From the IMG/VR virus record IMGVR_UViG_3300022934_000023, positions 1-56,796 of that record: 56,796 nucleotides of DNA; one strand, 5' to 3'. The DNA is from a virus. Positions 32,307 through 56,144 of this stretch are shown one piece after another. The notes beneath the pieces are model-generated. The model had not been told where the DNA came from, did not search any database, and saw nothing but the letters and a program-made list of their open reading frames with translations. The position numbers and the translations under genes were made by a program. Numbering within the stretch: the first letter of the stretch is position 1; each line of letters starts with the position of its first letter.

Positions 32307-33842
32307 TTACAGATCAACTTCTTCCAAGTCAAGCCAGTTTTTTCCGATTTTTATTTCGATGCCAACTGGCATGTTGTAAGCAATGCCGTATCTGCGAATG
32401 GTTTCAAAGGGTAACGAGAGCATGGCATGTTTCATCATGTCTATGCAAATATTTTTTTCGTCCGGATGCACGTCCATCACGATGGAGTCGTGAACCGTGT
32501 TGCAAATCACGCTCTGGATTCCGGCAGAGTCAATGACCCGCTGCAGCGACACCAGAGCCAGAGGCAACAGGTCAGCCGTAGCAAAGCCTTGGACCGGATA
32601 GTTACAGATGGCGGTGCGGTTAGTTGCTGTACCCCACTCTGTCCACTTGCATCCGGGGAACATGTACTCCCGGCCCGATGGTAGGGTAACTTTCTTGTAG
32701 CGTACCGCATCGCGTTGCAACTTGTCATGCCACTCGGTCACGCCCTCGTACTTTTCCTTGAAGGCACGGTAGTACCGCTTCTGATCCTCTGTGCCAGTGG
32801 TGCCACCGTACAGCGGCTTGAATGTGTGGGCCTTAGCCTGTTGCCGTGTGCAGCCAATGACGCTGGCTGTGTAGCTGTGTACATCTGTGCCAGCCTTCAC
32901 GTCGGCGTAGACCTGACCGTCTTTTGCAAGAAAGCCAGCTACACGAAACTCTAGCTGCGAGTAATCCCCCTCCATGATGAGGCCACCCTCGAAGCGGCTC
33001 TCGACCACCTTCCGTATAGCGAAGGTATTTCCACGTGGCATATTCTGAAAGTTAGGATTGCGGCTCGAAAGGCGACCCGTCGCCGTAACACACTGCATGA
33101 ATTCTGGATGGATGAAGCCGTGGTCATCCACGTTGTTTTCCATGCCTTCAACAAAAGTGTTGATGTACGTCTTGAGGGCGTTGTATCGCGTGTATGCCGA
33201 AACAAATTCACGTGCGTCTCCCTGTAGTTCGTCTAGTCTTTCTTCCAGTGTAACCTTGTCTGCGCGGAAGCCAGCGGCAGCAGTGTCCCACGTGTTGCGT
33301 GGCACCAGCTTGAATCCCGCCACTTGCCCAGTAGGCACGTAAAGGACGCCAGAGCCGCCGCAGGGCTTACATACACGTACTGCCTTACCCGGGGTGCCAT
33401 CTTTGCGTAAGGCGCGTGTACGGCCCTCTCCGGAGCATTTGGGGCATTGCTGACCTTTTGTCTTGTATACGACATCCGTCATGCGGCGTACGGTGCCACG
33501 GAATTCCTTCTCTGACATGCGTACCCGCTGCTTGGGTTTCATGGTTGATCCACGCATCTCGTGACCGAGGTTGAACGTACGCGCCCACTCCTTCTTGTCG
33601 TGGACTTTACGTGAGTAAAGCAACACGCTGCGGTCGTCGGGGCTGGACAGGTTGATGGGCGTGTCACCCATCGCATCTCGTGCGAGTTGCATGAGTCGAG
33701 TCTCTAACTCTTGCATCTCTTCCTCGTACTGCTTGCGAATGTCTGCAAGCGTGTCGAGGTTGATCCGGAGTCCGTTACGCTCAATCTGCGAGAGCGTGTT
33801 GGTCATCTCCAGTGACAGTTTCAGTGTCGGTACGAGGCTCAT
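32307..33842 (-). CDS. Family A DNA polymerase (polymerase domain only) with DnaJ-like zinc finger
   Basis: I start this at ATG 33842 (MSLVPTLKL), seven bases after GGAG, giving 511 residues. Motif A is DYSQLEFRV (D293), motif B is RQQAKAHTFKPLYGG (K337, F341) and motif C is VHDSIVMDV (H451, D452). F341 aligns with E. coli Pol I F762, the residue type linked to fast, faithful lytic phage polymerases. Before the palm, C133-C136 and C158-C161 sit in CPKCSGEG and CKPCGGSG, the DnaJ central-domain zinc-finger pattern, a hallmark I recall from phage HMO-2011. The 3'-5' exonuclease domain is not here but in the upstream gene. Confidence 0.93.
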   Translation of the reverse strand: MSLVPTLKLSLEMTNTLSQIERNGLRINLDTLADIRKQYEEEMQELETRLMQLARDAMGDTPINLSSPDDRSVLLYSRKVHDKKEWARTFNLGHEMRGSTMKPKQRVRMSEKEFRGTVRRMTDVVYKTKGQQCPKCSGEGRTRALRKDGTPGKAVRVCKPCGGSGVLYVPTGQVAGFKLVPRNTWDTAAAGFRADKVTLEERLDELQGDAREFVSAYTRYNALKTYINTFVEGMENNVDDHGFIHPEFMQCVTATGRLSSRNPNFQNMPRGNTFAIRKVVESRFEGGLIMEGDYSQLEFRVAGFLAKDGQVYADVKAGTDVHSYTASVIGCTRQQAKAHTFKPLYGGTTGTEDQKRYYRAFKEKYEGVTEWHDKLQRDAVRYKKVTLPSGREYMFPGCKWTEWGTATNRTAICNYPVQGFATADLLPLALVSLQRVIDSAGIQSVICNTVHDSIVMDVHPDEKNICIDMMKHAMLSLPFETIRRYGIAYNMPVGIEIKIGKNWLDLEEVDL

Positions 33843-34383
33843 TGAACATCTCCTCAAAGGTTACGCCATAGGCGTCTAGTTGTTTCAGTGCGATCTCTTC
33901 TGTGGCTAGTACGTCCGCACGACCGTACTCCTCAATTATCTCCCACGGTATATCGTAGAACGTCTTGCCGTCCTTGAGATACGGCTCCACAAGGTCTTTC
34001 TCCTTGCGGGTAACGTCATACTTTTCTGTAAGAGCAGCAAGTCCAAGAGGCCAACGCCTCGCTCGGGCCAGAATATATTCCGCAACCATCGTGTCATAGA
34101 TATGTCCCTCGTATGTAAAGCCGCACTCACGTATCCAAGTCAAGTCGAACTTGATGTTGTGGCCGACAAGTACGTCGGCGTAGTTCAGTGCGCGTTGGAA
34201 ATTGTCGAACGCATTTGGGCTAGGTGGCTCGGTTGAGTGATAGTAGCAGTCGTAGTCCACACCGCTGACTAGCCACTTGTAGCCGATAGAGACCAGCCGG
34301 TTGCCAAAGTATGGCAGGGGCGAGTAGCCGCCGCCACGCTTCTCCGTGTGGGTTGTCTCCACGTCAAACGTCAGTACGTTCAT
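33781..34383 (-). CDS. DnaQ-like 3'-5' exonuclease (separate proofreading domain)
   Basis: This 200-residue protein carries all three exonuclease motifs of family A polymerases: FDVETT (D7, E9), VGHNIKFDLTW (D80) and YGRAD (Y153, D157). It ends after a short linker, overlapping the polymerase gene by 62 bases in another frame. It should act with the polymerase as its proofreading subunit. Exo and pol are on one chain in T7 and E. coli; here they are split. I saw no slippery heptamer in the overlap that would suggest programmed frameshifting. Confidence 0.9.
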   Translation of the reverse strand: MNVLTFDVETTHTEKRGGGYSPLPYFGNRLVSIGYKWLVSGVDYDCYYHSTEPPSPNAFDNFQRALNYADVLVGHNIKFDLTWIRECGFTYEGHIYDTMVAEYILARARRWPLGLAALTEKYDVTRKEKDLVEPYLKDGKTFYDIPWEIIEEYGRADVLATEEIALKQLDAYGVTFEEMFNEPRTDTETVTGDDQHALAD

Positions 34384-34681: not shown

Positions 34682-35901
34682 CAGTAATACACCCCCTTCT
34701 CTACGTCGATCTGTGCATTAATCATGCCGTGCCAACCATTCAGCTTATTCTTCGACACACAAACATGACGAACCGTGTTCTCTACCTCACTTGATCCAGT
34801 CTTGCCGATGCCGATGATGATGTCGGCCTCGCCAGCCTTACCAGTACGCGAGTTGTCCAGCATGGAGTAGTCAATAAATTGACGGTCGTGTGCGTCAAAG
34901 TTTGCCTGACTGACTGCCCAGACCAGCAGCTTGTTGCGCTTGGCAATCTCTCGTGCGTAGACGTAGGTCTCCTTGAGACGCTCGTCACCACGGTTGAACT
35001 CGCCCTTGATGCGGAACTTGTCTAGCTGATCCATGAACATGATGTCAGGCTTGTTCAGCTTGGCATACTCGTCAGCCTCTTCGACAGACGTACCCACCGA
35101 GTCCATGACTGTGAGGTAGGGTGCGATCTCGTCACGATACTTAGCCGCGAGGGTTGCACGACTCTCACGCATCTCCTGCTGGGTCAACTCAAAGTATGAC
35201 TGAATAATCCGCAGCTTGATGCGATCTGCTGGCTCCTCGTTGGCCCAGTACACAACCTTAAGTCCCTGCCGGATGTATGACGCAGCAAGGAAGCAGCAGA
35301 AAGTTGTCTTACCAACTTCCGGTCGAGCAAACAGAATGCCAAGATTACCCCGATCCAAGCCGGGAACTTCTTCCTGCAACAGACTGAATTCAAACGGAAA
35401 GTCAGGATCGCCGGTTACTTCGTCGAGCAGTTCTTCCAAGTCGGTGTCCACTTCTGTGTATGTAGTTTTGTCAGACATGCGTCCGTCATCGACGGCATCG
35501 ATCAGGCGTTGCAACTCCCCGAACTCTTCGCTTTCGCCTGTGAAGATTTCAATGGCCTTCTCACCGATCTGACGCGCACGGTCACGCAACCAAAAGTTAC
35601 GCACCATGTCGATGTGCATGTCCGTGTTGTCGGGGTTGCCAGCCTCAAGCGTGACGATGATGTCGTGTACCTTCTCACGCGCACTGTCGGGCATGGCAGG
35701 GTTGCGATCATCGAACAGCGCAGCCAACTCCGATGATGTCATCGTGTTGCCATACTTTGTGTGGCTGTAGATCAGGGTGTCAAAGATATCGCGCATCTCT
35801 CGCGTGAACATTTCACGGTCCAGCGTGTTCTTTACCTGAGAGAAAAACTCTGCATCCAAACAGAAGCCAAGTATCTTTGTGTCAAGCGATACGTTCGTCA
35901 A
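34681..35901 (-). CDS. DnaB-like replicative helicase (T7 gp4B-like)
   Basis: This 406-residue protein starts at TTG and has the RecA-like helicase core. The P-loop is FARPEVGKTT (K198, T199), with Ala at the first glycine position, followed by VVYWANEEPADRIKLRI (Walker A partner/motif 1a) and IMFMDQLDKFR (Walker B) and a later SQANF and SRTGKAGEADIIIG segment typical of DnaB H4. The N-terminal 170 residues are helical like a DnaB N-domain. It unwinds DNA with the primase, encoded by the neighbouring gene with a 20-base overlap. Confidence 0.9.
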   Translation of the reverse strand: MTNVSLDTKILGFCLDAEFFSQVKNTLDREMFTREMRDIFDTLIYSHTKYGNTMTSSELAALFDDRNPAMPDSAREKVHDIIVTLEAGNPDNTDMHIDMVRNFWLRDRARQIGEKAIEIFTGESEEFGELQRLIDAVDDGRMSDKTTYTEVDTDLEELLDEVTGDPDFPFEFSLLQEEVPGLDRGNLGILFARPEVGKTTFCCFLAASYIRQGLKVVYWANEEPADRIKLRIIQSYFELTQQEMRESRATLAAKYRDEIAPYLTVMDSVGTSVEEADEYAKLNKPDIMFMDQLDKFRIKGEFNRGDERLKETYVYAREIAKRNKLLVWAVSQANFDAHDRQFIDYSMLDNSRTGKAGEADIIIGIGKTGSSEVENTVRHVCVSKNKLNGWHGMINAQIDVEKGVYY

Positions 35902-36691
35902 TGAATTCGTCCCTTTCGTCGTCCATCATGTTCTTCAAGTCGGTAGGCAGTACAGCCAAACTAGTTGGCACAAGAAAATGCAAACGACGAACAATGTCAA
36001 GTGCTTTGTCAGTCGCATCCTTGTCCAGTGCAACGTACACCCTGCTGTATTTCGATAGCCTATTAGCGTGTTCGTTGAGCAGGTTCGTACCCAGCAGAGC
36101 CATGCCTGTAACTTTATTGCTTACAGAACATGCACTCGCGCAATCTTCTACCACAAACGCAATGTCAGAGGTTCCGCAGACGAATGGCACTTGGGACTTA
36201 CCGTATCGATACCACTTAGGCTTAGTATCACGCAAGGCTCGTCCGACTGCATCAACTGTCTTTCGTCCATCTCGCACCATGTACACGACACGGTGCCGCT
36301 TGAAGTCGTACCGAATGTCAGCACGACCAGACAGATAAGAGTCATAGGCATTGACCTTTCTCACATACAGTTCTGCATCCGTGTTGCGTGACAGACTGAC
36401 GAACGTGGACGGCTCCTCAAAGCCAACACTCACAGCCGGTGCCGGTACAGATTTTGTCAGCTTATCTTTTGTCAACGCTTGACTGGCGAACTCTTTTGTC
36501 AGCTTGATACCGGTACGCCCACGCACGTTGCAGTCAGCATGAAAGCAGTACCAGAGGCGTTGCATACCATCGTCCGTTACGCTAAACGTGTTTGACTTAG
36601 CGCAGACAGGACAGTCTGCTCGGTAACTTGTCAGTGGTTGTATGTCAAGTGACTCAACGTACCCTGTCAGCCACGGCGGTGATTTTGTCAT
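35882..36691 (-). CDS. T7-type DNA primase with zinc finger and TOPRIM
   Basis: This 269-residue protein has an N-terminal zinc-binding domain (C27, C30, C49, C54 in CPVC ... CFHADC) and a TOPRIM core with E182 (VVEDCASAC) and D223/D225 (ALDKDATDKA). It corresponds to the primase half of T7 gp4, but the helicase half is a separate gene. T7-type primases recognise GTC-centred sites; the repeat described below contains TTGTC. It is the first gene of the leftward operon, starting at ATG 36691 with AAGGA upstream. Confidence 0.9.
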   Translation of the reverse strand: MTKSPPWLTGYVESLDIQPLTSYRADCPVCAKSNTFSVTDDGMQRLWYCFHADCNVRGRTGIKLTKEFASQALTKDKLTKSVPAPAVSVGFEEPSTFVSLSRNTDAELYVRKVNAYDSYLSGRADIRYDFKRHRVVYMVRDGRKTVDAVGRALRDTKPKWYRYGKSQVPFVCGTSDIAFVVEDCASACSVSNKVTGMALLGTNLLNEHANRLSKYSRVYVALDKDATDKALDIVRRLHFLVPTSLAVLPTDLKNMMDDERDEFIDERIA

Positions 36692-36798
36692 CGCTTGTCC
36701 TTTTCGTGATTTTTGTCACCATAACCCATATCGATATCGCTTGACAAGCAGAATTTTGTCAGCCACTATCTATATACCCCCCCTTTAGGGAGACCCCC
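36692..36798. promoter_or_regulatory. Divergent early intergenic region with palindromes
   Basis: These 107 bases separate the leftward replication operon from the rightward accessory operon. They contain a perfect palindrome ATATCGATAT (36728-36737), a near-perfect inverted repeat GCTTG-A-CAAGC (36739-36749) and a copy of the repeated motif, AATTTTGTCAGCC (36752-36764). For leftward transcription CTGACA on the other strand followed 17-18 bases later by CGATAT/GATATC could be -35/-10; a rightward promoter would use TTGACA 36741-36746 with a weak -10 near 36764. The palindromes look like operators for a dimeric regulator. Confidence 0.6.
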
Positions 36799-36951
36799 AT
36801 GAGGAAGAAGATAGATAAAATTAATCCGATAGCCAAAACCCTACGGGATAGTCTGTACAGAAAGAGAATTGTACAGGATAAACGAAAGGGTGAACAGGAT
36901 AAACGCGCGAAGAAGGAAATCAGGGATGCCAAGACCACCCAAGATTCGTGA
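36799..36951 (+). CDS. Small basic protein, first rightward gene
   Basis: A 50-residue protein starts at ATG 36799 after AGGGAG and ends at TGA 36949-36951, too short for most gene finders. It is Lys/Arg/Asp-rich and helical (MRKKIDKINPIAKTLRDSLY, KRIVQDKRKGEQDKRAKK). Similar INPIAK-L-RD small proteins are found in other podoviruses as early genes of unknown function. It is the first gene after the divergent promoter region. Confidence 0.6.
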   Translation: MRKKIDKINPIAKTLRDSLYRKRIVQDKRKGEQDKRAKKEIRDAKTTQDS

Positions 36952-37141
36952 AGACACGAAGACGTACAACCTGTTGATGCCGACAAGACAGTATGATATT
37001 TTGTCAGCCCATTCATCACGAATGACTGAGGCGGGTCTGGAACAGGTTGCTGTAGCTGACCTGATCCGCGAAGCAATCGACGTGTACATCGAAGCATTAG
37101 AGGATGAGGAGTACGAAGGTAATGTCAGCAAGGAAGATTAA
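36926..37141 (+). CDS. Ribbon-helix-helix DNA-binding protein
   Basis: I start this at ATG 36926 (MPRPPKIREDTKTY), with AAGGA nine bases before, giving 71 residues. The pattern strand (TYNLLMPTRQYDIL), helix (SAHSSRMTEAG) and helix (VAVADLIREAIDVYIEAL) matches the ribbon-helix-helix fold of CopG/MetJ/Arc-type repressors. Such proteins bind short repeated DNA sites as dimers, so it is a candidate binder of the motif repeated around it; that link is inference. It overlaps both neighbours. Confidence 0.75.
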   Translation: MPRPPKIREDTKTYNLLMPTRQYDILSAHSSRMTEAGLEQVAVADLIREAIDVYIEALEDEEYEGNVSKED

Positions 37142-37397
37142 GGTATTCAAAGATCGCAAGGGCAACGACTTGATGCCCTACGTTTTGTCAAAGGATGGTA
37201 GGCACGAGGTTGTCGCCCCAGTGTCATCCGTGCGGATTGGAGAGACACGCAAAGATTTTGTCAAGTCAAAGGCTTGCGTGGACTACGCACGATGGGTTGC
37301 ACTCTTTGTCGGACGAAGTGAAGCCGAATGCAAAAAGTGGCTTGACAAGTATCAGCGGGTGGTGCTAAGACTGTGTACACCGTACGAAGTCAGGTAG
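37122..37397 (+). CDS. Small basic protein, unknown
   Basis: The likely start is ATG 37122 (MSARKIKVFKDRKGND), giving 91 residues, with GAAGG upstream inside the preceding gene. The start codon is itself part of a TGTCAGC motif. The protein is basic and mostly strand and helix (VVAPVSSVRIGETRKDF, CKKWLDKYQRVVLRLC). No family is recognised. It is followed by a good terminator, so it closes the first small early operon. Confidence 0.55.
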   Translation: MSARKIKVFKDRKGNDLMPYVLSKDGRHEVVAPVSSVRIGETRKDFVKSKACVDYARWVALFVGRSEAECKKWLDKYQRVVLRLCTPYEVR

Positions 37398-37456
37398 TCC
37401 TTTCCCGGCTCCGTACGGTGCCTCCTTTAGAATAGTGTGTTGTTCGAAAACTTGAG

Positions 37457-37491
37457 CAGGGCTGGTAGAGATACTGGCCCTGTTCTTTTTT
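37457..37491 (+). terminator. Rho-independent terminator
   Basis: An 11-base-pair stem (37457-37467 with 37472-37482, two G-T wobble pairs) closed by a GAGA tetraloop is followed by TTCTTTTTT. This is a textbook intrinsic terminator and ends the first rightward early operon (36799-37397). Confidence 0.9.
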
Positions 37492-37493
37492 GT

Positions 37494-37522
37494 TTGACAG
37501 GGTTGATCGTTATCTGTATGGG
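37494..37522 (+). promoter_or_regulatory. Possible promoter for second early operon
   Basis: A perfect TTGACA at 37494-37499 starts immediately after the terminator T-run, with TATGGG 17 bases on as a weak -10. The nearby string TTATCTGTATGG (37510-37521) is repeated exactly at 42913-42924 in the non-coding region, which hints at a regulated site. The -10 is poor, so an activator may be needed. Confidence 0.45.
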
Positions 37523-37560
37523 TAATGTATTGCAACGCCAACACAGAGGAGATTGGCACA

Positions 37561-37808
37561 TGGAAATCACACTGACTGACAATCAACGCCGGGACTTTCT
37601 CCGGGCACACAACGAACTCCGCAATATCATTTCTACGATACAGGAGTGCAACGATCTTTGGGTATCCGACTTGGCAAAGCTGGAGCGGCTGCAACATCTG
37701 CTGCACTACACGCTCAAGTTTACACCGCCGGTTGACGACGAGGGCAACAGGATGTGGTATCGTGACTTTGTGTTTGAGGAAGAGGTGCCGAGCGATGCGG
37801 ACGATTGA
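37561..37808 (+). CDS. Small acidic helical protein
   Basis: ATG 37561 follows GAGGAG at a good distance, giving 82 residues (MEITLTDNQRRDFLRAHNEL). The protein is helical (IISTIQECNDLWVSDLAKL) with an acidic C-terminus (EEEVPSDADD). It overlaps the next gene by 14 bases. No known domain is visible. Longer upstream frames would run through the terminator and are unlikely. Confidence 0.6.
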
Positions 37809-38139
37809 GAACCACGTCGAGTGGTGCCACTGCTGGCAATGCGGTGGCTACGGCAAAGTCGAGGGCGAGGAGGCAGTGCCGGACCCTATCCGGGGCGGTG
37901 ATCTTGTCAGCAAGGTGTATTACTGTACCAAGTGTCACGGTGGCGGTGAAGTGTATCGCGCCAAGCTAACACAGACAACAGTGATCCGTGCCTTCTTGAC
38001 ACAGGCAAAGAACGCTCTGGAAGACATCGACCTCATTGACAGCGACCTCGACTTGGCATATGGCAGGATTGATGACGTGATCGGTGACATTGAAAACTAC
38101 GAAAGAAAGGTAGGGACACGCGATGGGCAAAGTAAGTGA
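37795..38139 (+). CDS. Small protein with DnaJ-like zinc finger
   Basis: ATG 37795 gives 114 residues. The N-terminal part contains CHCWQCGGYGKV and YYCTKCHGGGEV, two CxxCxGxG-type knuckles that together form the zinc finger of the DnaJ central domain, as in the polymerase of this phage. The C-terminal part is a helix of acidic character (LEDIDLIDSDLDLAYGR). It could bind nucleic acid or unfolded proteins or act on the host chaperone system; nothing further is certain. It contains one TTGTCAGC motif at 37901. Confidence 0.65.
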   Translation: MRTIENHVEWCHCWQCGGYGKVEGEEAVPDPIRGGDLVSKVYYCTKCHGGGEVYRAKLTQTTVIRAFLTQAKNALEDIDLIDSDLDLAYGRIDDVIGDIENYERKVGTRDGQSK

Positions 38140-38293
38140 CTGGCTAATCGAAATGGAAGAGGACGCCTCGTACATGACGCGCCAACAATTCATGGACAAG
38201 CACGGCGAGACGGTGGCCGAGGTTTACGACGAACTGCAACTCAAGTGGCAGTACGATCACGCCGAACCGGGAGAGCCTGACGATGTGGGTTGA
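38123..38293 (+). CDS. Small acidic protein
   Basis: A 56-residue protein from ATG 38123 to TGA 38293, missed by a 60-residue cut-off. It reads MGKVSDWLIEMEEDASYMTR, then helical and acidic sequence. Overlaps of 17 bases upstream and 11 bases downstream match the packing of its neighbours. No function known. Confidence 0.55.
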   Translation: MGKVSDWLIEMEEDASYMTRQQFMDKHGETVAEVYDELQLKWQYDHAEPGEPDDVG

Positions 38294-38465
38294 CCCGGAA
38301 GACGATCCGCGTCTGGAAAATGTCAGTGAAATATTGTCAGCCCTAATCACTGAACGCGACCGGCTGGAGTGGGAGGGGGATATTGTCAGTCCAAATATTG
38401 TCAGCCGGATACGCCGTCTACGAAATCTTGTCAGCGAGGGAATACTGTGGGAACCAAAATTCTGA
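38283..38465 (+). CDS. Small protein encoded across repeat cluster
   Basis: This 60-residue protein starts at ATG 38283. Five copies of the TTGTCAG motif lie inside it and give repeated ILS/IVS/LVS tripeptides (EILSALI, GDIVSPNIVSRI, RNLVSEGI). The overlap with both neighbours and the small size leave some doubt, but the reading frame is intact. It may be a short helical protein whose sequence is shaped by the DNA motif. No function known. Confidence 0.45.
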   Translation: MWVDPEDDPRLENVSEILSALITERDRLEWEGDIVSPNIVSRIRRLRNLVSEGILWEPKF

Positions 38466-38498
38466 GACGAAAAATTGTCAGCCCAAATATTGTCAGCC
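38317..38498 (+). repeat. Dense cluster of seven TTGTCAG motifs
   Basis: The TGTCAG cores start at 38321, 38335, 38384, 38399, 38429, 38476 and 38491. Intervals are 14, 49, 15, 30, 47 and 15 bases, i.e. three close pairs 14-15 bases apart plus a single copy. Close paired spacing of about 1.4 helical turns suggests cooperative binding of a protein pair or an iteron-type array. Confidence 0.8.
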
Positions 38499-38653
38499 AA
38501 AAGCACACAACATTATCGGCGAACAATCCCTGTGGGACATGCGGACAGCCAGCCATGACGAGAGAGGGCGACCGGCTGCGCTGTCCGTCCTGCTGGCTAA
38601 AAGAACAGGCAAAAAAAATAACGCCTATTGACCGGGGCGGTTATTATCCGTAA
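38447..38653 (+). CDS. Small zinc-ribbon protein
   Basis: A GTG start at 38447 with GAGGG seven bases upstream gives 68 residues. The protein has CGTCGQPAMTREGDRLRCPSC as a four-cysteine zinc ribbon between residues of about 30 and 52 (two CxxC pairs), and basic flanks. Its N-terminus is encoded by two TTGTCAGCC motifs (IVSPNIVSQ). Zinc ribbons of this size often bind nucleic acid or host polymerase subunits. The overlap with the previous gene is 19 bases. Confidence 0.6.
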   Translation: MGTKILRRKIVSPNIVSQKHTTLSANNPCGTCGQPAMTREGDRLRCPSCWLKEQAKKITPIDRGGYYP

Positions 38654-38694
38654 TCTTGCCGGACGTTTAGGACATACGAGAAGGACACAACGAC

Positions 38695-38949
38695 ATGAAA
38701 AAGCGAATACACATAAATCAGCACGTCATCCGGGCGAATGCCAAGAACGGCACAAACGACCCGGCAATCACTGTCAAAACATACCGTAACAATTATTACG
38801 CGCACCGGGTGGAAATCGACGGCGCGTCGTCTGTTGTTTACTCACCGGACAAACCGTTAAATTGTGGTGCGCGGGTATGGGTGGAAACTGACGAACCGGT
38901 AACGCTGCACGGCTTGGATAATGATAATTTTACACTGGTGATAGCATGA
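38695..38949 (+). CDS. Conserved small phage/plasmid protein
   Basis: This 84-residue protein begins MKKRIHINQHVIRANAKNG and contains TVKTYRNNYYAHRVEI and SPDKPLNCGARVW. I recall near-identical proteins in many phages and prophages of proteobacteria, where it is always unnamed. It is beta-rich and basic. It overlaps the next gene at ATGA and follows an AAGGAC ribosome-binding leader like those of the next genes. Confidence 0.7.
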   Translation: MKKRIHINQHVIRANAKNGTNDPAITVKTYRNNYYAHRVEIDGASSVVYSPDKPLNCGARVWVETDEPVTLHGLDNDNFTLVIA

Positions 38950-39560
38950 AACAGGCTACGCTGATCGATCACGAAAAGATGATCTATAATATTTGCAGCG
39001 TCTATCGTGACGCCGACGAAACGCAACACGCGGAGGGCTTGTTGTGGTACGATAACGCACAAAAGGCGGCGCACGATATCGCGGTAAAATATGGCATCGC
39101 TGTTTACATTGTGGTGGCGGTGATCGCCGCGCTATCCCCAAATAACAAATGGTCTCGAAACGTGACAAACGCGGCGACGCTAATTGATGCTTTCCTGCGC
39201 GGCGACGGCATCGACTCGGTGAAAGTCTCGACCTACAACAAGATGAAGGCGAAGGCTTGGGACATCTTGGCGGCGCGTCCGGACTATGACGGCGCAAAAA
39301 AGATGCTCAAGGGCCAGAAGATCACGTCCTTTTTTATGGACATCATGGGCGAATTCAACGTCACCATTGATGGCCACGCGCGAAACATTGCCTACAATGA
39401 GCGGGTTGGATTGACCGACGACCGGACAAACATCGGCGTCCGTGAATACCGCGCTTTGCAAGCCGCTTACGAAGAGGCGGCGCGACGTGTTGGCCTCATG
39501 CCGTACCAGCTACAGGCGATCACTTGGCGCGTTTGGCGCGACCGGCACGGGATTACATGA
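38946..39560 (+). CDS. Conserved phage protein with AALSPNNKW and DGHA motifs
   Basis: This 204-residue protein carries VIAALSPNNKWSRNV, LKGQKITSFFMDI, VTIDGHARNIAY and YQLQAITWRVWRD. The order of motifs is that of a widespread phage/plasmid family (I recall DUF7178) that resembles helix-hairpin-helix DNA glycosylases, with an Asp close to a GHA motif. A role in DNA base processing or defence evasion is a suggestion only. It is coupled to both neighbours by ATGA. Confidence 0.6.
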   Translation: MKQATLIDHEKMIYNICSVYRDADETQHAEGLLWYDNAQKAAHDIAVKYGIAVYIVVAVIAALSPNNKWSRNVTNAATLIDAFLRGDGIDSVKVSTYNKMKAKAWDILAARPDYDGAKKMLKGQKITSFFMDIMGEFNVTIDGHARNIAYNERVGLTDDRTNIGVREYRALQAAYEEAARRVGLMPYQLQAITWRVWRDRHGIT

Positions 39561-39793
39561 GCGAAATTTTGTCAGCGCCATGCTTCACAAATATTGTCAG
39601 TGCCATGCTTCACTGTTTGGGGATCGGTTGGGGGTTTCCTGCGCCATTGTTCGGGGGCGGGACTGTCGGGCCGGTCGGATCGGCGGCGAGACGACGGGGC
39701 CAGCCGATCACCGACGCCAGCCAACTTTTTTTGGCTCAACTCTTCACAGGCTGCAAATCCTGTGCCATGATTCACCCACCGGTCACGAGATGA
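39557..39793 (+). CDS. Small hypothetical protein over 25-bp repeat
   Basis: The frame starts at the ATGA overlap (39557) and gives 78 residues (MSEILSAPCFTNIVSAMLHCLG). Its first 20 codons consist of two 25-base repeats carrying the TTGTCAG motif. The rest is Gly/Ala/Pro-rich. Coupling to the previous gene supports translation, but composition is unusual and no domain is seen, so it may be a regulatory leader rather than a gene. Confidence 0.35.
   Translation: MSEILSAPCFTNIVSAMLHCLGIGWGFPAPLFGGGTVGPVGSAARRRGQPITDASQLFLAQLFTGCKSCAMIHPPVTR
39564..39613 (+). repeat. Two direct 25-bp repeats with TTGTCAG motif
   Basis: TTGTCAG(C/T)GCCATGCTTCAC occurs at 39569-39588 and 39594-39613, with AAATTTTG/AAATATTG upstream of each. 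The two copies are 25 bases apart and differ by the C/T position and the AT flank. This extends the short motif to a longer unit here and sits just after a gene end, a plausible binding array or recombination site. Confidence 0.85.
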
Positions 39794-42513: not shown

Positions 42514-42561
42514 CGAAATACCCTCCCGGCGGGGTGAATAGCCGGGTTCCTCCCTAACTTG

Positions 42562-42589
42562 CCCCCGGCCCTAGTGCTGGGGGTTTTTT
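42562..42589 (+). terminator. Rho-independent terminator
   Basis: CCCCCGGC (42562-42569) pairs with GCTGGGGG (42576-42583), one G-T wobble, with loop CCTAGT and six T. It ends HNH transcription and marks the start of the long non-coding region. Confidence 0.9.
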
Positions 42590-43868: not shown

Positions 43869-45528
43869 ACCTAAAAAAGACCCCAATGCGCCAAAGGCCA
43901 CATATAACCTCTCTACGAGGGAACGTGCGCGACGTGCGGCGACGAAACGTGTTAATGCCGCGAAACGTCGTGCAGTCAAGTCAAGCAAAGCCGCAGAGGA
44001 CAAACGACGCTATGCCCGAAAGCTGGAACAAACTACAACAAAGGTTGAAAAGGCTCTGGTTGGCAACGAGTCTGCCACAATCGATCTTGGGGATTTGGAT
44101 GTACTGCCAGATGCAGTCAGTGACCTTGTTAGCGAAAGCGAGATTGTCTTTCAGCCGAATGATGGCCCTCAGACAGACTTTCTCAGTGCGGGTGAGCGAG
44201 ACGTACTTTACGGCGGTGCTGCCGGTGGTGGAAAGAGCTTTGCACTTCTTGCTGATCCGCTACGTTACTGCCACAATCCTAATCATCGTGGTCTTCTTCT
44301 CCGTCGTACACTGGATGAACTCACCGAACTAATCGACAAGTCACGTCAACTGTACCCCAAAGCCTTTCCGGGTGCAAAGTTCCGGGAGTCAAAAACCACG
44401 TGGGTGTTTCCATCCGGAGCAACAATATGGTTTACGTACCTTGACAGAGATAAGGACGTAACCCGCTTTCAGGGTCAGGCGTTCAACTGGATAGGTATCG
44501 ATGAGATAACGCAATACCCCACACCGTACGTTTGGGATTACCTTCGTTCTCGTCTTCGCTCAACAGACCCTGAACTCCAACAACACCTCTATATGCGTTG
44601 CACAGCGAACCCCGGAGGCATTGGGGGCTGGTGGGTCAAAAAAACGTACATTGACGGCCTAGAACCCAACAAAGCCTTTCCCGCATTTGACATCGAGACA
44701 CAAAAGCCCTTTGTGTGGCCAGCAGGTCACGAGAAGGCAGGTCAACCGCTGTTCCTTCGCAAGTTTGTACCGGCGCGGCTGACCGACAATCCCTACCTGA
44801 TGGCAGACGGTCAGTACGAGGCGATGCTCAGGTCGCTCCCAGAAGTCGAGCGAAAGCGGCTTCTCGAAGGGGATTGGGATGTGGCGGAGGGAGCAGCCTT
44901 CCCAGAATTTTCAAGGAGTCGGCACGTTGTCGAACATTTCGAGTTACCTACCAATTGGCCCCGTATACGAGCGGCAGACTACGGCTATGCGAGTCCGTCG
45001 TGCGTTCTGTGGGGGGCTATTGACTGGGATAACAATATCTGGGTTTATCGCGAACTATATGCTAAACACTTGACAGCGGAAGAGTTAGCTGATAAAATAA
45101 TGGAAGCAGAACAACTCGACCCAACACCGCACTACACCGTGTTGGATTCGTCGTGTTGGAACAAGACAGGATTCGGTCCGTCGATTGCCGAAACAATGAT
45201 GAGAGCCGGAGTCCGCTGGACACCTTCTGATCGTAATCGCATACAGGGCAAGATGGAAGTTCATCGCCGTCTTGCTAATGATCCCTACACAGAAGAACCT
45301 CGATTACGTATCTTCTCCAGTTGCCAAAACATAATTAAGCAACTGGCTGGCATTCCGCTTTCTAAGTCCAACAGTGAAGATGTAGATACTAAGGCAGAGG
45401 ATCACGCATACGACGCTCTGCGATACATGGTAATGACACGCATGAGCGGATACACATCAATACACAAACAACTTGGTGCAATTAAGAGTCAGGTGTACCA
45501 AGTCCAAGATGAGACGTTCGGATACTGA
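43828..45528 (+). CDS. terL: Terminase large subunit
   Basis: This 566-residue protein starts at GTG after AGGGGG. The basic N-terminus (KKRGRPKKDPNAPK) precedes the ATPase, with Walker A GGAAGGGKS at 129-137 and Walker B WIGIDE at 221-226. The nuclease begins near RAADYGYASPS and contains later conserved Asp (TKAEDHAYDALRY). It powers DNA packaging into the procapsid and cuts concatemers. The Ala/Lys-rich N-terminal extension of about 100 residues is longer than usual and may bind DNA. Confidence 0.95.
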   Translation: MDDQQQSAPKKRGRPKKDPNAPKATYNLSTRERARRAATKRVNAAKRRAVKSSKAAEDKRRYARKLEQTTTKVEKALVGNESATIDLGDLDVLPDAVSDLVSESEIVFQPNDGPQTDFLSAGERDVLYGGAAGGGKSFALLADPLRYCHNPNHRGLLLRRTLDELTELIDKSRQLYPKAFPGAKFRESKTTWVFPSGATIWFTYLDRDKDVTRFQGQAFNWIGIDEITQYPTPYVWDYLRSRLRSTDPELQQHLYMRCTANPGGIGGWWVKKTYIDGLEPNKAFPAFDIETQKPFVWPAGHEKAGQPLFLRKFVPARLTDNPYLMADGQYEAMLRSLPEVERKRLLEGDWDVAEGAAFPEFSRSRHVVEHFELPTNWPRIRAADYGYASPSCVLWGAIDWDNNIWVYRELYAKHLTAEELADKIMEAEQLDPTPHYTVLDSSCWNKTGFGPSIAETMMRAGVRWTPSDRNRIQGKMEVHRRLANDPYTEEPRLRIFSSCQNIIKQLAGIPLSKSNSEDVDTKAEDHAYDALRYMVMTRMSGYTSIHKQLGAIKSQVYQVQDETFGY

Positions 45529-47462
45529 TGGCAAAAAAGACCGTAAAAGATTTATCTATTGAGATAGTAAAAAAGGCAGAGGCGGGTACTCTGACTATCG
45601 GTGAAGCACTGGATTACGTATCTAATCCTAGTGTCCCTATGCCTGAGTCGTACAAGTCAATTAACAAAGAAGGCGTCCACGTTGCCCGTGCCCAGATGAA
45701 TACGGTACGCAACAACATGAAGACGCTTAAAAAGCTGGCTCCTGATGACTTTCCTCTCGGACTAGACACGCCTCTCAAAGATATGCGGAATGCAGAAATC
45801 GTGTTTCTGTTCCGTCGTGATGGTTCTCCTGATCTTTCGAACCGAGCCTATAACTATCAAATCTTCGAAAACATTCTGTTTCACAACCTCGACAAGTATG
45901 GTCTTTCAGCCATCACTGAGGATGTGGGCGACGGCATTAAAGAGTCCATGTATCCGCGCCTTGCGGGTGCAGGTAATCCAATGGGTACGCAGCGTACAGG
46001 TCTTGCTGGCGAACGTCCTATGGAGGGACTGCTTGAGAAGGAAAAGCTGGATGCAATATACGCGGATGCTCTTCCTGAAGTCGAAGCAAAGTACAACGCT
46101 AATACACGCCGACTCGTAGAATACCATCGCAACACCTTCCAGCGTCCAGAACAACTAGTAGGTTTGAAGGTTACAGATGTCATCGTCGATGGCGACAACA
46201 TAACCGTCAAGGGCAAGAAGACAACCAAGACAGATCACAAGGGTCGTCCAGAGTTGACCTTTAAGGCAAGTAGCCCTATGGGCCGCTTGCTGACAGAAGC
46301 AAAGAATTCCAGCACCTCTGATCTTCTCTTTGATACTGACATCGACACGTTCAATGATGCGTTTAATGATACGGTCGGAAAACGACTTGCCGAATACAAA
46401 GATGTGCTTCCACAGGCGGACGTTAAAGTCACTCTGCCCAATGGTAAAGTAGAAATTCAGCAACGCGCAGTTACAACTCCGTCTGCTATTCGTTCGATTG
46501 TCCCACACTACCTGCATAAGCAACTCAAAGTCAACAAAGACGTTGTTCAGGGCTTGATGGGACACATCAATGCCGATACGATTGACCGTAACTATATTGG
46601 CATCTCAGCAAATAAAGACCTCCCTCTGGTTCTGGAAAATCCTGAAAACTTTGCCCAGAGTGGATTCGGTGGCGGAACTAACGCCCAGCATTTTGATCGC
46701 AGTCTTCTCAGTGAAGAACAGCTTGAGTTAATTGCAGGCGAACTTACTGAAGCCGAGACACAAGAGGCAAAGGCACGTACTGCTGTTGCTGTTCGTGTAC
46801 AGGCAACAGAAGCTCTTCAAACACAAAAAGCGGTTATAGAACGTGCTGCACAGATGCCAGAAGAAATTGCTGCTGCAACCACTGTCGCAGAAGGCGAAGC
46901 GCAAATAGCGCAAGTGCAGTCTGAGGCTCGTTCTAGCGCACGAAAAGAGTCTGCTGCAAACAGAGGTAAAGCTCACCGCAACGCATTGCGCGAAATGCTA
47001 GACCCACGTAATCTCAAGTCTTCGGCGCTGGCTGGGCTGGCTACTGCAGGTACTCTGCTGTCAAAGGCACCCAATCCCGTGTTTGATTTAGTAGGCGGTC
47101 TTGTAGATAAAGAGAGCTACGACATCGCAGAACAAAAGGGTCGTACCTTTGTGTCCGAGTTGACAGGTCAGCCGGAAGATAGCTTTCTGTCACGAATAGG
47201 CGGGGGAGCAGGCGTAGTAGGTGAGATGCTTACCGGTGCTGTTGCTGACCCCGAGGGTGCAGCCCGTACAAGCGCCCAGATGATGTCGCTGCTGGGCAAG
47301 ACCCCGATTCTTAATTTGACGAGGGGCATTCCTGATGCGGCCCCGCCACAGACAGGTACACTTGAGGCAGAAGACGCTGCGTCTAATGTCCAAGACGTAG
47401 AAAACCGCGCACGTAGCGGTCAAACCACGTCCCTGCTGGACGTACAACCACAAACTTTATAG
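45528..47462 (+). CDS. Tyrosine-recombinase-like virion/packaging protein
   Basis: This 644-residue protein starts at a TGATG overlap after terL. Residues of about 195-358 follow the tyrosine recombinase catalytic layout: TFQRPEQLVGLKVTDV (R206, Arg I), a beta hairpin with Lys (ITVKGKKTTKTD), TTPSAIRSIVPHYLH (R322, Arg II; the usual His is S319), LMGH (H346) and NYIG (Y356, nucleophile position). So five of six signature residues remain. An N-terminal SAM-like helical part precedes it. The last 270 residues are Ala/Glu-rich coiled coil then Gly-rich membrane-type segments, unlike integrases. Its place between terL and portal suggests a virion or packaging role. Confidence 0.7.
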   Translation: MAKKTVKDLSIEIVKKAEAGTLTIGEALDYVSNPSVPMPESYKSINKEGVHVARAQMNTVRNNMKTLKKLAPDDFPLGLDTPLKDMRNAEIVFLFRRDGSPDLSNRAYNYQIFENILFHNLDKYGLSAITEDVGDGIKESMYPRLAGAGNPMGTQRTGLAGERPMEGLLEKEKLDAIYADALPEVEAKYNANTRRLVEYHRNTFQRPEQLVGLKVTDVIVDGDNITVKGKKTTKTDHKGRPELTFKASSPMGRLLTEAKNSSTSDLLFDTDIDTFNDAFNDTVGKRLAEYKDVLPQADVKVTLPNGKVEIQQRAVTTPSAIRSIVPHYLHKQLKVNKDVVQGLMGHINADTIDRNYIGISANKDLPLVLENPENFAQSGFGGGTNAQHFDRSLLSEEQLELIAGELTEAETQEAKARTAVAVRVQATEALQTQKAVIERAAQMPEEIAAATTVAEGEAQIAQVQSEARSSARKESAANRGKAHRNALREMLDPRNLKSSALAGLATAGTLLSKAPNPVFDLVGGLVDKESYDIAEQKGRTFVSELTGQPEDSFLSRIGGGAGVVGEMLTGAVADPEGAARTSAQMMSLLGKTPILNLTRGIPDAAPPQTGTLEAEDAASNVQDVENRARSGQTTSLLDVQPQTL

Positions 47463-47704: not shown

Positions 47705-49819
47705 ATGGCTGACAACTTTCTGGAACCGGCTGACGATACAGCAGTTCCGCTAGAAAACCCGGAAGAACAGTTTCCGGGCCTAGCGGCGTACGTCAGGGGT
47801 AAATTTGAAGACGCAGAGAACGGACGTTTCTCGTACGAACAGCGATGGTTGCAAGCGTACAAGAACTTCCGTGGCATCTACGATACAACTACACAGTACC
47901 GTGATTCTGAGCGGTCAAAGGTGTTCATCAAGATCACCAAAACCAAGGTGCTGGCAGCATACGGTCAGATCGTAGACATTCTGTTTGCTAACAAGAAGTT
48001 TCCGATGGTTGTTGAGCCGACTCCCGTACCGGAAGGTATCGCGGAGTTTGCACACCTTGAGACTCCGCTGGATCAGATGGTAGAAGACCCGTACGGCTAC
48101 GCAGGCGACGGGCGAGAAATGCCGTTTGGTGCAACAGAGGCAACTCCGTCTATGGACTTTCTTGGTGGGTTGCAGCAGCGATACGCTAATGCACCTATCC
48201 AACCCGGTCCTGCCCTCATGGGCGAACCCCAGATCAGTCCGGCTCAAAAGGCTGCACTGAACATGGAGAAGCAAATCCATGACCAACTCCTTGACACAAG
48301 TGCTGTTAATGTTCTTCGATCTTCTATCTTTGAGTCCGCACTTCTGGGAACTGGTATTGTAAAGGGTCCGTTCAATCACTACAAGCGAATCCACAAGTGG
48401 CAGTCGGGTCCGGAGGGTCGGCAGTACGTTCCCTACGAAAAGGTAGTTCCACGTATTGAACACGTATCTCCGTGGGACTTTCATCCCGATCCGTCTGCAA
48501 CAAACGTAGACGACTGTGAGTACGTTATTCAACGTCACCGCATGAATCGACAGCAGCTTCGTGGGCTGATTGCACAACCGTATTTCTACAAAGATGCAAT
48601 CGAAGAATGCCTTGCAAAAGGCCCGAACTACGAAGACAAGTACTACGAAGATACCATCCGTGAGGATGAGACTGAGCCGTACTATCAGGGCAATCGCTAC
48701 GAAGTACTAGAATACTGGGGTGTTATTGACTCCAAGATGGCCGATGAGGCAGGTCTAGACGTAGCTGACAGCATGGATGAGTTCGATCAGGTTCAGGTCA
48801 ACATCTGGATTTGTGGCACAATGGTGCTGCGCTGCGTTCTCAACCCGTTTACACCTGCACGCATTCCCTACCAAGTGTTCCCGTACGAGATCAACCCCTA
48901 TCAAATCTGGGGCGTTGGTATTGCTGAGAACATGGAAGACGCGCAGATGTTGATGAACGGCCACGTTCGTATGGCTATCGACAACCTTGCTCTTGCTGGC
49001 AACCTCGTATTCGACGTGGACGAAGCATCTCTTGTGCCGGGACAGAACATGGATATCTTCCCCGGTAAGATATTCCGTCGTCAGTCGGGCGTCACTGGTA
49101 CAGCAATCAACGGTCTCAAGTTTCCTAACACGGCACCTGAGAACATCCAGATGTACCAGATCAGCCGTCAGCTTGCAGACGAAGAGACAGGTCTGCCATC
49201 CATCATGCACGGACAGACGGGCGTAGCAGGCACAGGACGCACAGCATCCGGCCTCTCTATGCTGCTTGGCGGTGCAAGCCTGTCACTCAAGACGGTAATC
49301 AAGAACATTGACGACAGCCTTCTCAAGCCGCTTGGTGAGGCGTATTTCCAGTGGAACATGCAGTTCAACGATGACTCTCCTGACATCGAAGGCGACCTAG
49401 AGATCAAGCCACGCGGTGTAGCAGCCGTTATGCAAAAAGAAGTACGAAGTCAGCGTTTGACTACGCTGCTGCAAACGGTATCGAATCCGATGCTGGCACC
49501 GTTCATCAAGATTCCGAATCTGATGCGCGAACTCGCTATCGCACAGGACATTGATCCAGACAGTCTCGTCAACGATGTTAACGAGGCACAGATTTTCGCA
49601 GAGATGTTGAAGGGATTAGCCAATGCTCAACAAGAAGCAAGCCAGCAAGGTCAGCCAACTGGTGACCAACAAGGAAGCGTGGGACAGTCTGGAGGAGTAC
49701 CTCCGGGAGCAAATCCAGATGACGCTTCGGGCGTTGGTGGCGGCACAATCGGAACTGGAAGTGTTCCGGCTGCAGGGGAAAATAACTTCACTGGAACAGA
49801 TCAAGGGGCTGAAGGCTGA
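47705..49819 (+). CDS. Portal protein
   Basis: This 704-residue protein is encoded after terminase and before scaffold, the usual portal place, and its size and helix-strand pattern fit podoviral portals (e.g. VFIKITKTKVLAAYGQIVDI, ERSKVFIK, HVRMAIDNLALAGNL, PGKIFRRQSG, GRTASGLSMLLGGAS). It forms the dodecameric ring at one head vertex for DNA entry and exit and tail attachment. The last 66 codons are Gln/Gly/Ser/Pro-rich and disordered and overlap another gene in a different frame. Confidence 0.85.
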   Translation: MADNFLEPADDTAVPLENPEEQFPGLAAYVRGKFEDAENGRFSYEQRWLQAYKNFRGIYDTTTQYRDSERSKVFIKITKTKVLAAYGQIVDILFANKKFPMVVEPTPVPEGIAEFAHLETPLDQMVEDPYGYAGDGREMPFGATEATPSMDFLGGLQQRYANAPIQPGPALMGEPQISPAQKAALNMEKQIHDQLLDTSAVNVLRSSIFESALLGTGIVKGPFNHYKRIHKWQSGPEGRQYVPYEKVVPRIEHVSPWDFHPDPSATNVDDCEYVIQRHRMNRQQLRGLIAQPYFYKDAIEECLAKGPNYEDKYYEDTIREDETEPYYQGNRYEVLEYWGVIDSKMADEAGLDVADSMDEFDQVQVNIWICGTMVLRCVLNPFTPARIPYQVFPYEINPYQIWGVGIAENMEDAQMLMNGHVRMAIDNLALAGNLVFDVDEASLVPGQNMDIFPGKIFRRQSGVTGTAINGLKFPNTAPENIQMYQISRQLADEETGLPSIMHGQTGVAGTGRTASGLSMLLGGASLSLKTVIKNIDDSLLKPLGEAYFQWNMQFNDDSPDIEGDLEIKPRGVAAVMQKEVRSQRLTTLLQTVSNPMLAPFIKIPNLMRELAIAQDIDPDSLVNDVNEAQIFAEMLKGLANAQQEASQQGQPTGDQQGSVGQSGGVPPGANPDDASGVGGGTIGTGSVPAAGENNFTGTDQGAEG

Positions 49820-49853
49820 CTACGAAGCAGCGGTGAGTATGCGAGATGAATGA
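49623..49853 (+). CDS. Overprinted small coiled-coil protein
   Basis: This 76-residue protein (MLNKKQASKVSQLVTNKEAW) lies almost wholly within the portal 3' end, in another frame, with the last ten codons outside. Unlike its host frame it has a normal helical sequence with heptad-like Leu spacing (LEEYLREQIQMTLRALVAAQ, LQGKITSLEQIKGLKADYE). It is likely the real structured product, while the portal tail is low complexity. It would be a small virion or assembly factor; similar proteins follow portals in marine phages. Confidence 0.65.
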   Translation: MLNKKQASKVSQLVTNKEAWDSLEEYLREQIQMTLRALVAAQSELEVFRLQGKITSLEQIKGLKADYEAAVSMRDE

Positions 49854-51756
49854 AATAGTTCAAGGCTACATATCGACAGTCCTGACAGAGAGAGCGACAG
49901 GGGCACCTAGTCCGTACGACCAAGACACGGGCATGAGTCGTAGCTTTCTTCCCTATCGGGGTACAGCACCGGCAAGTAGTCCTGCTGCCGCTGCAATCGC
50001 AGCAGCCTTTTCAGAACGAGACGACGCTGTCTACAGGGGAGACCTTGTTGTTACAGGAATAGGCACAGACGTTAGGGATCGCTTTGGAGGTATGCCTCGT
50101 AGTGTTACCGGAGCGATTTCTGGAACAGGTTTGGGTCCGTTTGCTGCACTGGGGGCAGCAATGTCGTCAAATAATCTCACTAGAATTCAAGAAAAACAGA
50201 GAGCCGGTGAAGAAGGCTATGCTGTCGGTATGCTTAACGGGCGTATTGTAGGCGTCTCCCCCGGAATAGGCGGTCCCGTGCTGTCAGGTATGTTGCCTGA
50301 AGGGATAAGCGTAAAGCAACGACAGAGCATTGCACAACAGCTTCTTGAGATGTCCGGATCAAGATTCCAGCCTGATGAAGGCATAGGAGGATCAGCAGCG
50401 GACAACCCTAACCTGAAGACCGGACGTACCTACTCTGAGACAAGATTCGGCGCAGGAACTTACGAAGGCGGGACAATCCCCCCTGACAGTATCAACCCCT
50501 CTGCGTTTGTCATGGGTATCCCCCCTGCAGGTGATCGAGGGGATGATCCATCAAGTATTAGGTTCATAAATATTGGGGCAGATCGTCCCGATCCTAACTA
50601 CCGTCCGTCTTTGAATACCTTTGACTATTATGGTGATCCCGGTGGCGACACGGGTCCGGCACCTACAGGCGGGGCAACGACTCCACGTGATGATTCTGAC
50701 AGAGATCAGCCTAGAAACGAGTATTCAATAGGGGGCGGTGGCAGCAACAATCCTGCGGACAGAGGCTACTCCATGATGGCTGATGGCGGTACTGTTCAAG
50801 GAACAGGCTTCGTTTCCGGCTCTCCTGACAACTATACCAAAGCACAGACAGTAGCCGATGACGAGAATCGTCAAGTGCGCGAAGGAGCATTTGTTCTTAA
50901 CGCGCCTACTACCGAAAAGCTTCAAAAAGCCGGACTGTTGCCTACCGGGGTTGACAATTCAGGTAAAAACACTACAATAAAAGCAAGCAAAGGTGGTTTG
51001 ATGGACGTAGCCCTGTCCAAGGGTGAGTACGTTATCGAACCCGAAGAAGCCCAGCGCATTGGGTACTCATTTCTCGAACAACTTAATAATGGTGGCAAGG
51101 CCGAAGTAGATCGTCGGCAAGCTGCTGCTGATGGCGGGTTCATCAAGGGTTACGCAGAAGGCGGAGAACTACCTCTTGCTAAGATTGAACTTAGCGACGC
51201 CACTAAAAACAAATTCAATACTTTTTTGAAGAGTCGTCGTCAACGTGCTGATGTTGAAAGGCTCATTGATAACATGGACGACAGAGAGCGTCTTGCTGTA
51301 CTGGCCTTGGCTGAAACAACTGCAGCTACTGACTCCGTCGAATCTATGATGGGCGTAGGTCAAACTGCTATTAACCGTGCGCGTACAAACCGTCCAAGCT
51401 TTTCTAAAGTAAACGATCTTGCATCTGTCATGAAGCAGCGATCATCTCGCGGCTCTGGAAGCAAGATGTTTCAGTACGACGGACTTGAACCCGGCATTCT
51501 TAGTAAGAGACTGAAAGAGGTAATGGAGGGACGTGTTCCGGGCGCGGTAACAAAGACGTTTTCTGCGGCAGATAATCTGTTAAATCCTGAAACAGAGTCT
51601 GACCCCGTATTACCATTTGATGTAATGTTTTACACAAAACCTAACGCACCACTAGCAAAGGATTTTGAAAAAAATCCTAAAATGCGTTTTGTTAAAAGTT
51701 ATGGAGGGCATGATTACTACGCTCTCGACGCGGCCCCAGAAGGGACTCGCAAGTAA
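49846..51756 (+). CDS. Virion protein with SleB-like (cell wall hydrolase) domain
   Basis: This 636-residue protein has a long Gly/Pro/Asp-rich low-complexity region (residues ~200-310), then MADGGTVQGTGFVSGSPD and SKGEYVIEPEEAQRIG, a module typical of phage structural proteins. Residues of about 480-600 (LAVLALAETTAATDSVESMM, GVGQTAINRART, KVNDLASVMKQ) follow the SleB/Hydrolase_2 layout, with the Glu in LALAETT as the candidate catalytic acid. It should cut peptidoglycan during entry or assembly. The gene lies between portal and scaffold, overlapping the overprinted gene by eight bases. Confidence 0.65.
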   Translation: MNEIVQGYISTVLTERATGAPSPYDQDTGMSRSFLPYRGTAPASSPAAAAIAAAFSERDDAVYRGDLVVTGIGTDVRDRFGGMPRSVTGAISGTGLGPFAALGAAMSSNNLTRIQEKQRAGEEGYAVGMLNGRIVGVSPGIGGPVLSGMLPEGISVKQRQSIAQQLLEMSGSRFQPDEGIGGSAADNPNLKTGRTYSETRFGAGTYEGGTIPPDSINPSAFVMGIPPAGDRGDDPSSIRFINIGADRPDPNYRPSLNTFDYYGDPGGDTGPAPTGGATTPRDDSDRDQPRNEYSIGGGGSNNPADRGYSMMADGGTVQGTGFVSGSPDNYTKAQTVADDENRQVREGAFVLNAPTTEKLQKAGLLPTGVDNSGKNTTIKASKGGLMDVALSKGEYVIEPEEAQRIGYSFLEQLNNGGKAEVDRRQAAADGGFIKGYAEGGELPLAKIELSDATKNKFNTFLKSRRQRADVERLIDNMDDRERLAVLALAETTAATDSVESMMGVGQTAINRARTNRPSFSKVNDLASVMKQRSSRGSGSKMFQYDGLEPGILSKRLKEVMEGRVPGAVTKTFSAADNLLNPETESDPVLPFDVMFYTKPNAPLAKDFEKNPKMRFVKSYGGHDYYALDAAPEGTRK

Positions 51757-55955: not shown

Positions 55956-56144
55956 ATGATGCACGTCTTTCTCCTGTTTGTTTTCTTGGGAACGGGAGAA
56001 GACAAGCGAAGAGTCAGCAACGACATGTATTTTCGCGACCTAAATGAATGCGTGTGGTACGCACAAAAACTCCACAAACAAGGAAACGAGGTTACGGCGT
56101 ACTGCCTACCCAAACTGGTCGATAAAGATACGAAGGTATACTGA
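55956..56144 (+). CDS. Small exported Cys protein (complete copy)
   Basis: This 62-residue protein starts two bases after the previous stop. The N-terminus MMHVFLLFVFLGTGED is a possible signal or signal-anchor, and the C-terminal part has NECVWYAQKLHKQGNEV and TAYCLPKLVDK with two cysteines for one disulfide. It likely sits in the periplasm or envelope. The 3' part recurs at 1-134. It resembles the early protein at 25951. A spanin-type or envelope role is possible from location. Confidence 0.65.
   Translation: MMHVFLLFVFLGTGEDKRRVSNDMYFRDLNECVWYAQKLHKQGNEVTAYCLPKLVDKDTKVY

Follow-up and report, generated by a model that had tools for sequence, protein, structure and literature searches.

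Strand-oriented repeats in the early region of a putative marine podovirus genome and their coupling to portal and ejection-block genes

Phage T5 carries an injection stop signal, a repeat-bearing region of its DNA at which DNA entry pauses, and we know of no covariation of this signal with virion proteins. In phage T7, the model podovirus, the internal virion proteins gp14, gp15 and gp16 of the ejectosome are described as being ejected ahead of the genome, binding DNA and controlling the length of the first-entering DNA, with gp16 proposed as a clamp on the entering genome (PMC8954989). The RNA polymerase of phage N4 is carried in the virion, injected from it, and recognises defined sites of the early region (PMC4496689). 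The L5-type (cluster A) mycobacteriophages carry stoperators, many short, asymmetric and oriented sites whose sequence varies by phage group together with the trans-acting protein (PMC9283540, PMC6550527). Here we describe a field of short oriented repeats (core WWTTGTCAG, W being A or T) in the early region of the virus record IMGVR_UViG_3300022934_000023, a stretch of 56,796 bases that was analysed as a whole and is hereafter called the window. Comparison with relatives shows that the repeats keep one orientation and one zone, come in two nearly exclusive sequence types (A and B), switch type independently of the surrounding genes, and are tightly coupled in type to the virion set of portal, scaffold-like and ejection-block genes.

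Each of the last three systems resembles this locus in part. Stoperators share the short, asymmetric and oriented sites, but their orientation follows transcription, whereas the repeats described here stay on one strand even where the genes are transcribed in opposite directions. Stoperator specificity follows the repressor, whereas the repeat type here follows the portal and ejection genes. The T7 ejectosome, in which ejected virion proteins act on entering DNA, gives a precedent for the reading proposed below, but the binding of gp16 is described as sequence-independent, and no matching DNA repeats are found for T7 in the accessible part of that account (PMC8954989). A virion-injected protein reading early-region sites is a feature of N4 (PMC4496689) and is also what is proposed here, but a polymerase is not recognised in this case, and the sites stand in tandem within genes, some of them antisense. 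For sequence-specific control of genome entry tied to ejection proteins, we found no precedent.

Repeat field and its two types

The initial annotation of the window had noted, at 36451-39602, a clustered field of TTGTCAG-type repeats on the plus strand, and counting against a shuffled background confirms that this field is real. Within these limits TTGTCAG occurs 14 times on the plus strand, against a mean of 0.16 in dinucleotide shuffles (maximum 2 among 500 shuffles), and once on the minus strand (37576). For TGTCAG the count is 17 (0.70 in shuffles), and for [AT][AT]TTGTCA it is 16 on the plus strand (0.17 in shuffles) and 0 on the minus strand. Over the whole window there are 18 plus and 9 minus copies of TTGTCAG, the latter scattered, 12 plus and no minus copies of TTTTGTCA, and 18 plus and 2 minus copies of WWTTGTCA, with 17 of the 18 plus-strand copies located within 35466-39599. 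Clustering in one zone is thereby borne out, and the left limit needs a small correction, the field beginning slightly further left (35468, 36006). Several of the TTTTGTCA copies do not carry the next G of the core. Plus-strand copies are found in the primase gene, which is read leftward, in the intergenic region between the divergent genes, and in rightward genes, where they fall in more than one phase; this supports the earlier view that the constraint acts on DNA.

The sites listed here lie on the plus strand, and the repeats of the window are of type A. Three are located inside the primase gene (36452-36503, with TTTTGTCA cores at 36452, 36467 and 36494), five near the primase start and between the divergent genes (36628-36764; 36628, 36665, 36683, 36711 and 36754), one within the RHH gene (36999-37009, TTTTGTCAGCC), two TTTTGTCA sites in the rightward gene that follows RHH (37183-37263), and a lone TTGTCAGC site in a small Cys-rich gene (37904-37911). 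The best-conserved part of the field consists of two extended sub-clusters. Cluster 1 (38318-38498) contains seven sites at the boundary of the small genes C12 and C5, including AAATATTGTCAGCC at 38329, 38393 and 38485, and a 15-bp spacing recurs in it; cluster 2 (39564-39613) consists of two 25-bp tandem copies of AAATNTTGTCAGYGCCATGCTTCAC directly past the stop codon of the DUF7178 gene.

Relatives were retrieved with the primase (eighty) and with DUF7178 (eighty). The type-A repeat of the window reads AAAT[A/T]TTGTCAGC on the plus strand. In type B the plus strand carries TGACAAAC, about 5 bases (n5) and then GACRCTAA, and its TTGTCA core is therefore on the opposite strand. The two types occupy the same two positions, one where C12 meets C5 and the other directly past the cargo-gene stop codon before DUF932, so that the place of cluster 2 is occupied by type-B copies in other genomes. 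Each of the 80 DUF7178 loci has A or B repeats, with hardly any genome showing both, and either type keeps to one strand. On the long contigs the arrays of either type are confined to the zone from primase to DUF932, with scattered matches only elsewhere. A third version was found at the cluster-2 place of one 5.9-kb contig (L150, 593-1400), namely GATGGCAAGCG-GCGACACTA with tandem GATGGCAAGCG..GCGACACTATATTTTT. This comparison supports the view that the signal is both strong and conserved in relatives.

The type is not set by the neighbouring genes, because it swaps between genomes in which these genes are mostly the same. G006 (A) and G012 (B) share most of their flanking and replication genes at 87-100% identity, and C5 is almost the same in its zinc-ribbon part, but the repeats of one type stand in place of the other. 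Which cargo gene lies between the two clusters does not depend on repeat type either: it may be DUF7178 or, as in this pair of genomes, code for one of two CxxC proteins.

Genes that track the repeat type

In order to compare gene histories with repeat type, gene trees were built for about 78 families in 26 contigs with the repeat type as a label, and the number of label changes on each tree was counted. Only one change is needed for the portal, the adjacent 74-amino-acid (aa) family, a 297-aa scaffold-like family, and the 447-aa and 183-aa ejection-block families, while three further ejection-block families (862/754, 1564/1569 and 202/150 aa) are A-only/B-only, and a 767-aa virion gene family needs two changes. 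Repeat type thus follows ejection-protein lineage. All the other families need 2-8 changes, nearly all 3-8; a few antisense open reading frames overlapping the tracking genes score 1-2 and represent their shadows. When all open reading frames of 27 long contigs were considered, the families whose nearest neighbour was always of the same type were virion genes, barring C12, which bears sites itself, and short or antisense frames. On a wider portal tree, in which some of the B labels are based on one or two sites, the A genomes form one clade (support 100/100) with a single change in 100% of the bootstraps.

The tracking genes of the window lie in two blocks on the plus strand. The names ejection-block and scaffold-like come from gene order and size, because the family hits name neither. 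The ejection block comprises genes for 434 aa (15753-17057, tracking with one change), 180 aa (17070-17612, in A genomes only, an unrelated 150-aa gene standing there in B genomes), 179 aa (17609-18148, tracking), 862 aa (18150-20738, a family of A genomes only) and 1564 aa (20741-25435, the A family). The 1564-aa protein is distantly homologous to the protein that B genomes have in this position (hhalign 99.7%, 14% identity), whereas the 862/754-aa pair gave no clear match when compared; a search with the 1564-aa protein retrieved four loci only. The second block consists of the portal (47705-49819), in which one branch splits A from B with 100/100 support, the 74-aa gene between the portal and the next gene (49623-49853, tracking), a 636-aa virion gene (49846-51756, nearest neighbour always of the same type, two changes on the tree) and the 292-aa scaffold-like gene (51850-52728, tracking with one change).

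Three held-out genomes agreed with this coupling. In G013, whose primase is 84% identical to that of the window and whose ejection genes are of the B lineage, the primase-zone sites are largely absent, with one TTGTCA near the primase start against eleven in the same span of the window. G014 (primase 77% identical, A-lineage ejection genes) has eight TTGTCA in a shorter span near the primase. G032, a far relative (primase 52% identical, A-related virion), carries A-type repeats, tandem copies of AAATAATGTCAGCCC, in the same zone as the window, and neither C5 nor DUF7178 was detected in it.

The genes of the early region itself gave a different result. As readers of the repeats, the initial annotation had listed the RHH protein, the primase or the binding of replication iterons, but no RHH, primase or initiator-like gene tracks repeat type, and the portal, scaffold and ejection-protein set, which does track it, was missing from that list. 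The changes per tree are 5 for primase, 4 for RHH, 5 for DUF7178, 6 for DUF932, 5 for PolA and 8 for RNR, and 4 for TerS, 5 for TerL, 4 for the major capsid protein and 6 for wHTH; primase, helicase, PolA, RHH and DUF932, each with 4-6 changes, do not covary with the repeats as an initiator would. The RHH-like gene (36926-37141, plus strand) was rejected as a reader, its proteins being up to 98% identical across types, and so was the primase (35882-36691, minus strand), with cross-type identity up to 88% and, on a separate tree, 7 changes of which at least 6 are forced by supported branches. The wHTH gene C28 was rejected since its recognition-helix sequence is identical in L200 (B) and L026 (A), and C5 (38447-38653, plus strand), a small zinc-ribbon gene with sites in its first codons, since its zinc part is nearly identical in L065 (A) and L083 (B). 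Its neighbour C12 (38283-38465, plus strand) encodes a small protein and holds cluster-1 sites in its coding sequence. The DUF7178 gene (38946-39560, plus strand) is the interchangeable cargo between the two clusters, one of three genes found at this place; no relative of it was found in bacterial genomes. AlphaFold models of RHH and of the 179-aa ejection-block protein were too weak to use.

Neighbouring RNA element and the genome as a whole

Directly 3' of cluster 2, between the last repeats and DUF932, lies a new and conserved candidate structured RNA (39612-39740, plus strand). An alignment of 20 sequences supports two helices, in which 94.8% of the cells are paired and 11 of the 16 pairs are changed on both sides in a compensatory manner. 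The covariation score is 0.477 against 0.276 in shuffles, none of 500 shuffles being as high; slid structures score far lower, although in this control the structure has an advantage, having been derived from the same alignment. The element is followed on its 3' side by a conserved promoter-like stretch and then by the DUF932 start. Rfam gave no gathering-level match in the window and nothing overlapping 39612-39740 at E<=1; elsewhere, 42517-42589 shows a weak match to the small RNA SorX (E 0.0012, 28.4 bits; gathering score 46.6).

DNA polymerase, primase and portal assign the window to the marine podoviruses of HMO-2011 type, of which it is a near-complete genome. Among cultured genomes, Pelagibacter phage HTVC033P is closest, with amino-acid identities of 48% (DNA polymerase), 39% (primase) and 55% (portal). 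The cultured relatives thus group with the window in these three genes but differ from it in the repeats, since none of the five examined has an oriented array comparable to that of the window upstream of primase. The window is probably a near-complete circle, because its first 127 bases recur exactly at 56011-56137; the next 659 bases differ from the record start, and the record probably closes on itself with a variant overlap. Among the relatives, whose contig ends were compared for physical genome ends, two contigs close exactly on themselves.

Two further observations concern single genes. DNA polymerase A is split over two overlapping open reading frames, exonuclease (33781-34383) and polymerase (32307-33857), which form two separate families in relatives as well. 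Between TerL and portal, a 644-aa protein (45528-47462) gives a weak tyrosine-recombinase match, and several sequence families occupy this exact place in relatives; as a reader of the repeats it was rejected, because two of its local families contain both A and B genomes.

Possible readers of the repeats

The coupling to the portal and ejection set, the strict polarity and the early-gene location lead us to suggest the portal/core machinery as the reader of the sites. Our tentative proposal is that the repeats may be short, asymmetric, direction-dependent DNA recognition sites that are matched to the portal, scaffold and ejection set of the phage itself and read during genome entry. With a little more reserve, we consider that they could form a polar, sequence-specific address in early-region DNA for the portal and ejection machinery, so that genome and virion types would have to match. 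The reader would belong to the portal/internal-core complex and would most likely be one of the large ejection-block proteins (862 or 1564 aa here). This protein would meet the DNA in one polarity during passage through the portal and grip or pause it at the arrays during entry of the early genes, much like the clamp suggested for T7 gp16 but with sequence specificity.

Several points weigh against this proposal of an entry-control site. The ejection-block proteins showed no identifiable DNA-binding domain, and the DNA binding of T7 gp16 is described as sequence-independent (PMC8954989). The sites are spread over two or three locations separated by 0-4 kb. Nor do all genomes have the array: G009, whose ejection genes are intermediate between the two lineages, carries neither cassette nor array. 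The records are metagenomic contigs, among which chimeras are possible. The gene trees covered families from 65 aa upward, and smaller genes, or incompletely covered regions, could hide the reader. The virion side shows a single A/B split, so that something else common to each virion lineage, for instance the host, could account for the coupling.

Because of this single split, the setting of both features by the host remains a serious rival, which we consider rather less likely than the proposed reading by the virion. Under this explanation a host protein (initiator, regulator, nucleoid or recombination protein) binds the repeats, A and B virions infect different hosts, the host fixes both ejection-protein lineage and repeat sequence, and early genes move between two phage pools. 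Since ejection proteins contact the host envelope, virion lineage may indeed follow host clade, and no phage regulator was found that tracks repeat type; against this, the G+C contents overlap (0.446-0.511 in A, 0.441-0.530 in B), and the capsid and terminase genes do not track type.

The next two readings are weaker than that of the host, and we regard both as unlikely. The arrays might mark where or how DNA threads into the procapsid, the portal/core complex reading them at packaging instead of entry, and the tracking by portal and scaffold-like proteins and the single orientation, which suits polar packaging, fit with this; but TerS and TerL, the usual readers of pac or cos sites, do not track type (4 and 5 changes, with cross-type identity of about 96%), which disfavours pac or cos sites read by TerS, and the arrays are about 4 kb from the terminase genes. 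With the same low probability, an injected virion protein might control early transcription at the repeats as in N4, in agreement with the early-region location and with the position of cluster 2 directly 5' of the RNA element. Against such control, the large ejection-block proteins carry no recognisable polymerase domain, and many sites are intragenic in 15-bp tandem, some being antisense in the primase gene. Pfam and PHROG gave no polymerase match, the 1564-aa protein had no sequence match in PDB, and a simple search for RNA polymerase motifs gave no convincing set; these negative motif and family searches speak against an N4-like virion RNA polymerase.

The remaining readings are disfavoured because no corresponding phage gene tracks type. 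Replication-origin iterons bound by a phage initiator are very unlikely: there are direct repeats at the divergent region, and the cumulative GC-skew minimum falls at the primase/RHH divergence, but this turn coincides with the switch of gene strand, and no phage replication or DNA-binding protein tracks type. Slightly more doubtful still is a role as operators or stoperators, bound by a repressor or by the RHH protein; the asymmetric oriented sites of about 13 bp are similar to L5-type stoperators and the RHH gene adjoins the repeats, but one strand is kept across oppositely transcribed genes, RHH and wHTH do not track type, and the surroundings of the arrays showed no recognisable repressor gene. 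Recognition sites of a T7-type primase can be practically dismissed: TTGTC lies within the core and the repeats lie near the primase gene, but the primase does not track type (5-7 changes), type B has its core on the other strand and conservation reaches past the pentamer.

If the proposed reading by the portal and ejection machinery is correct, virion and genome would recognise each other, and a compatibility rule would govern module exchange in an abundant group of marine phages. Such a rule would set limits on which modules can recombine, and the repeats would represent a testable signal for entry (or packaging).

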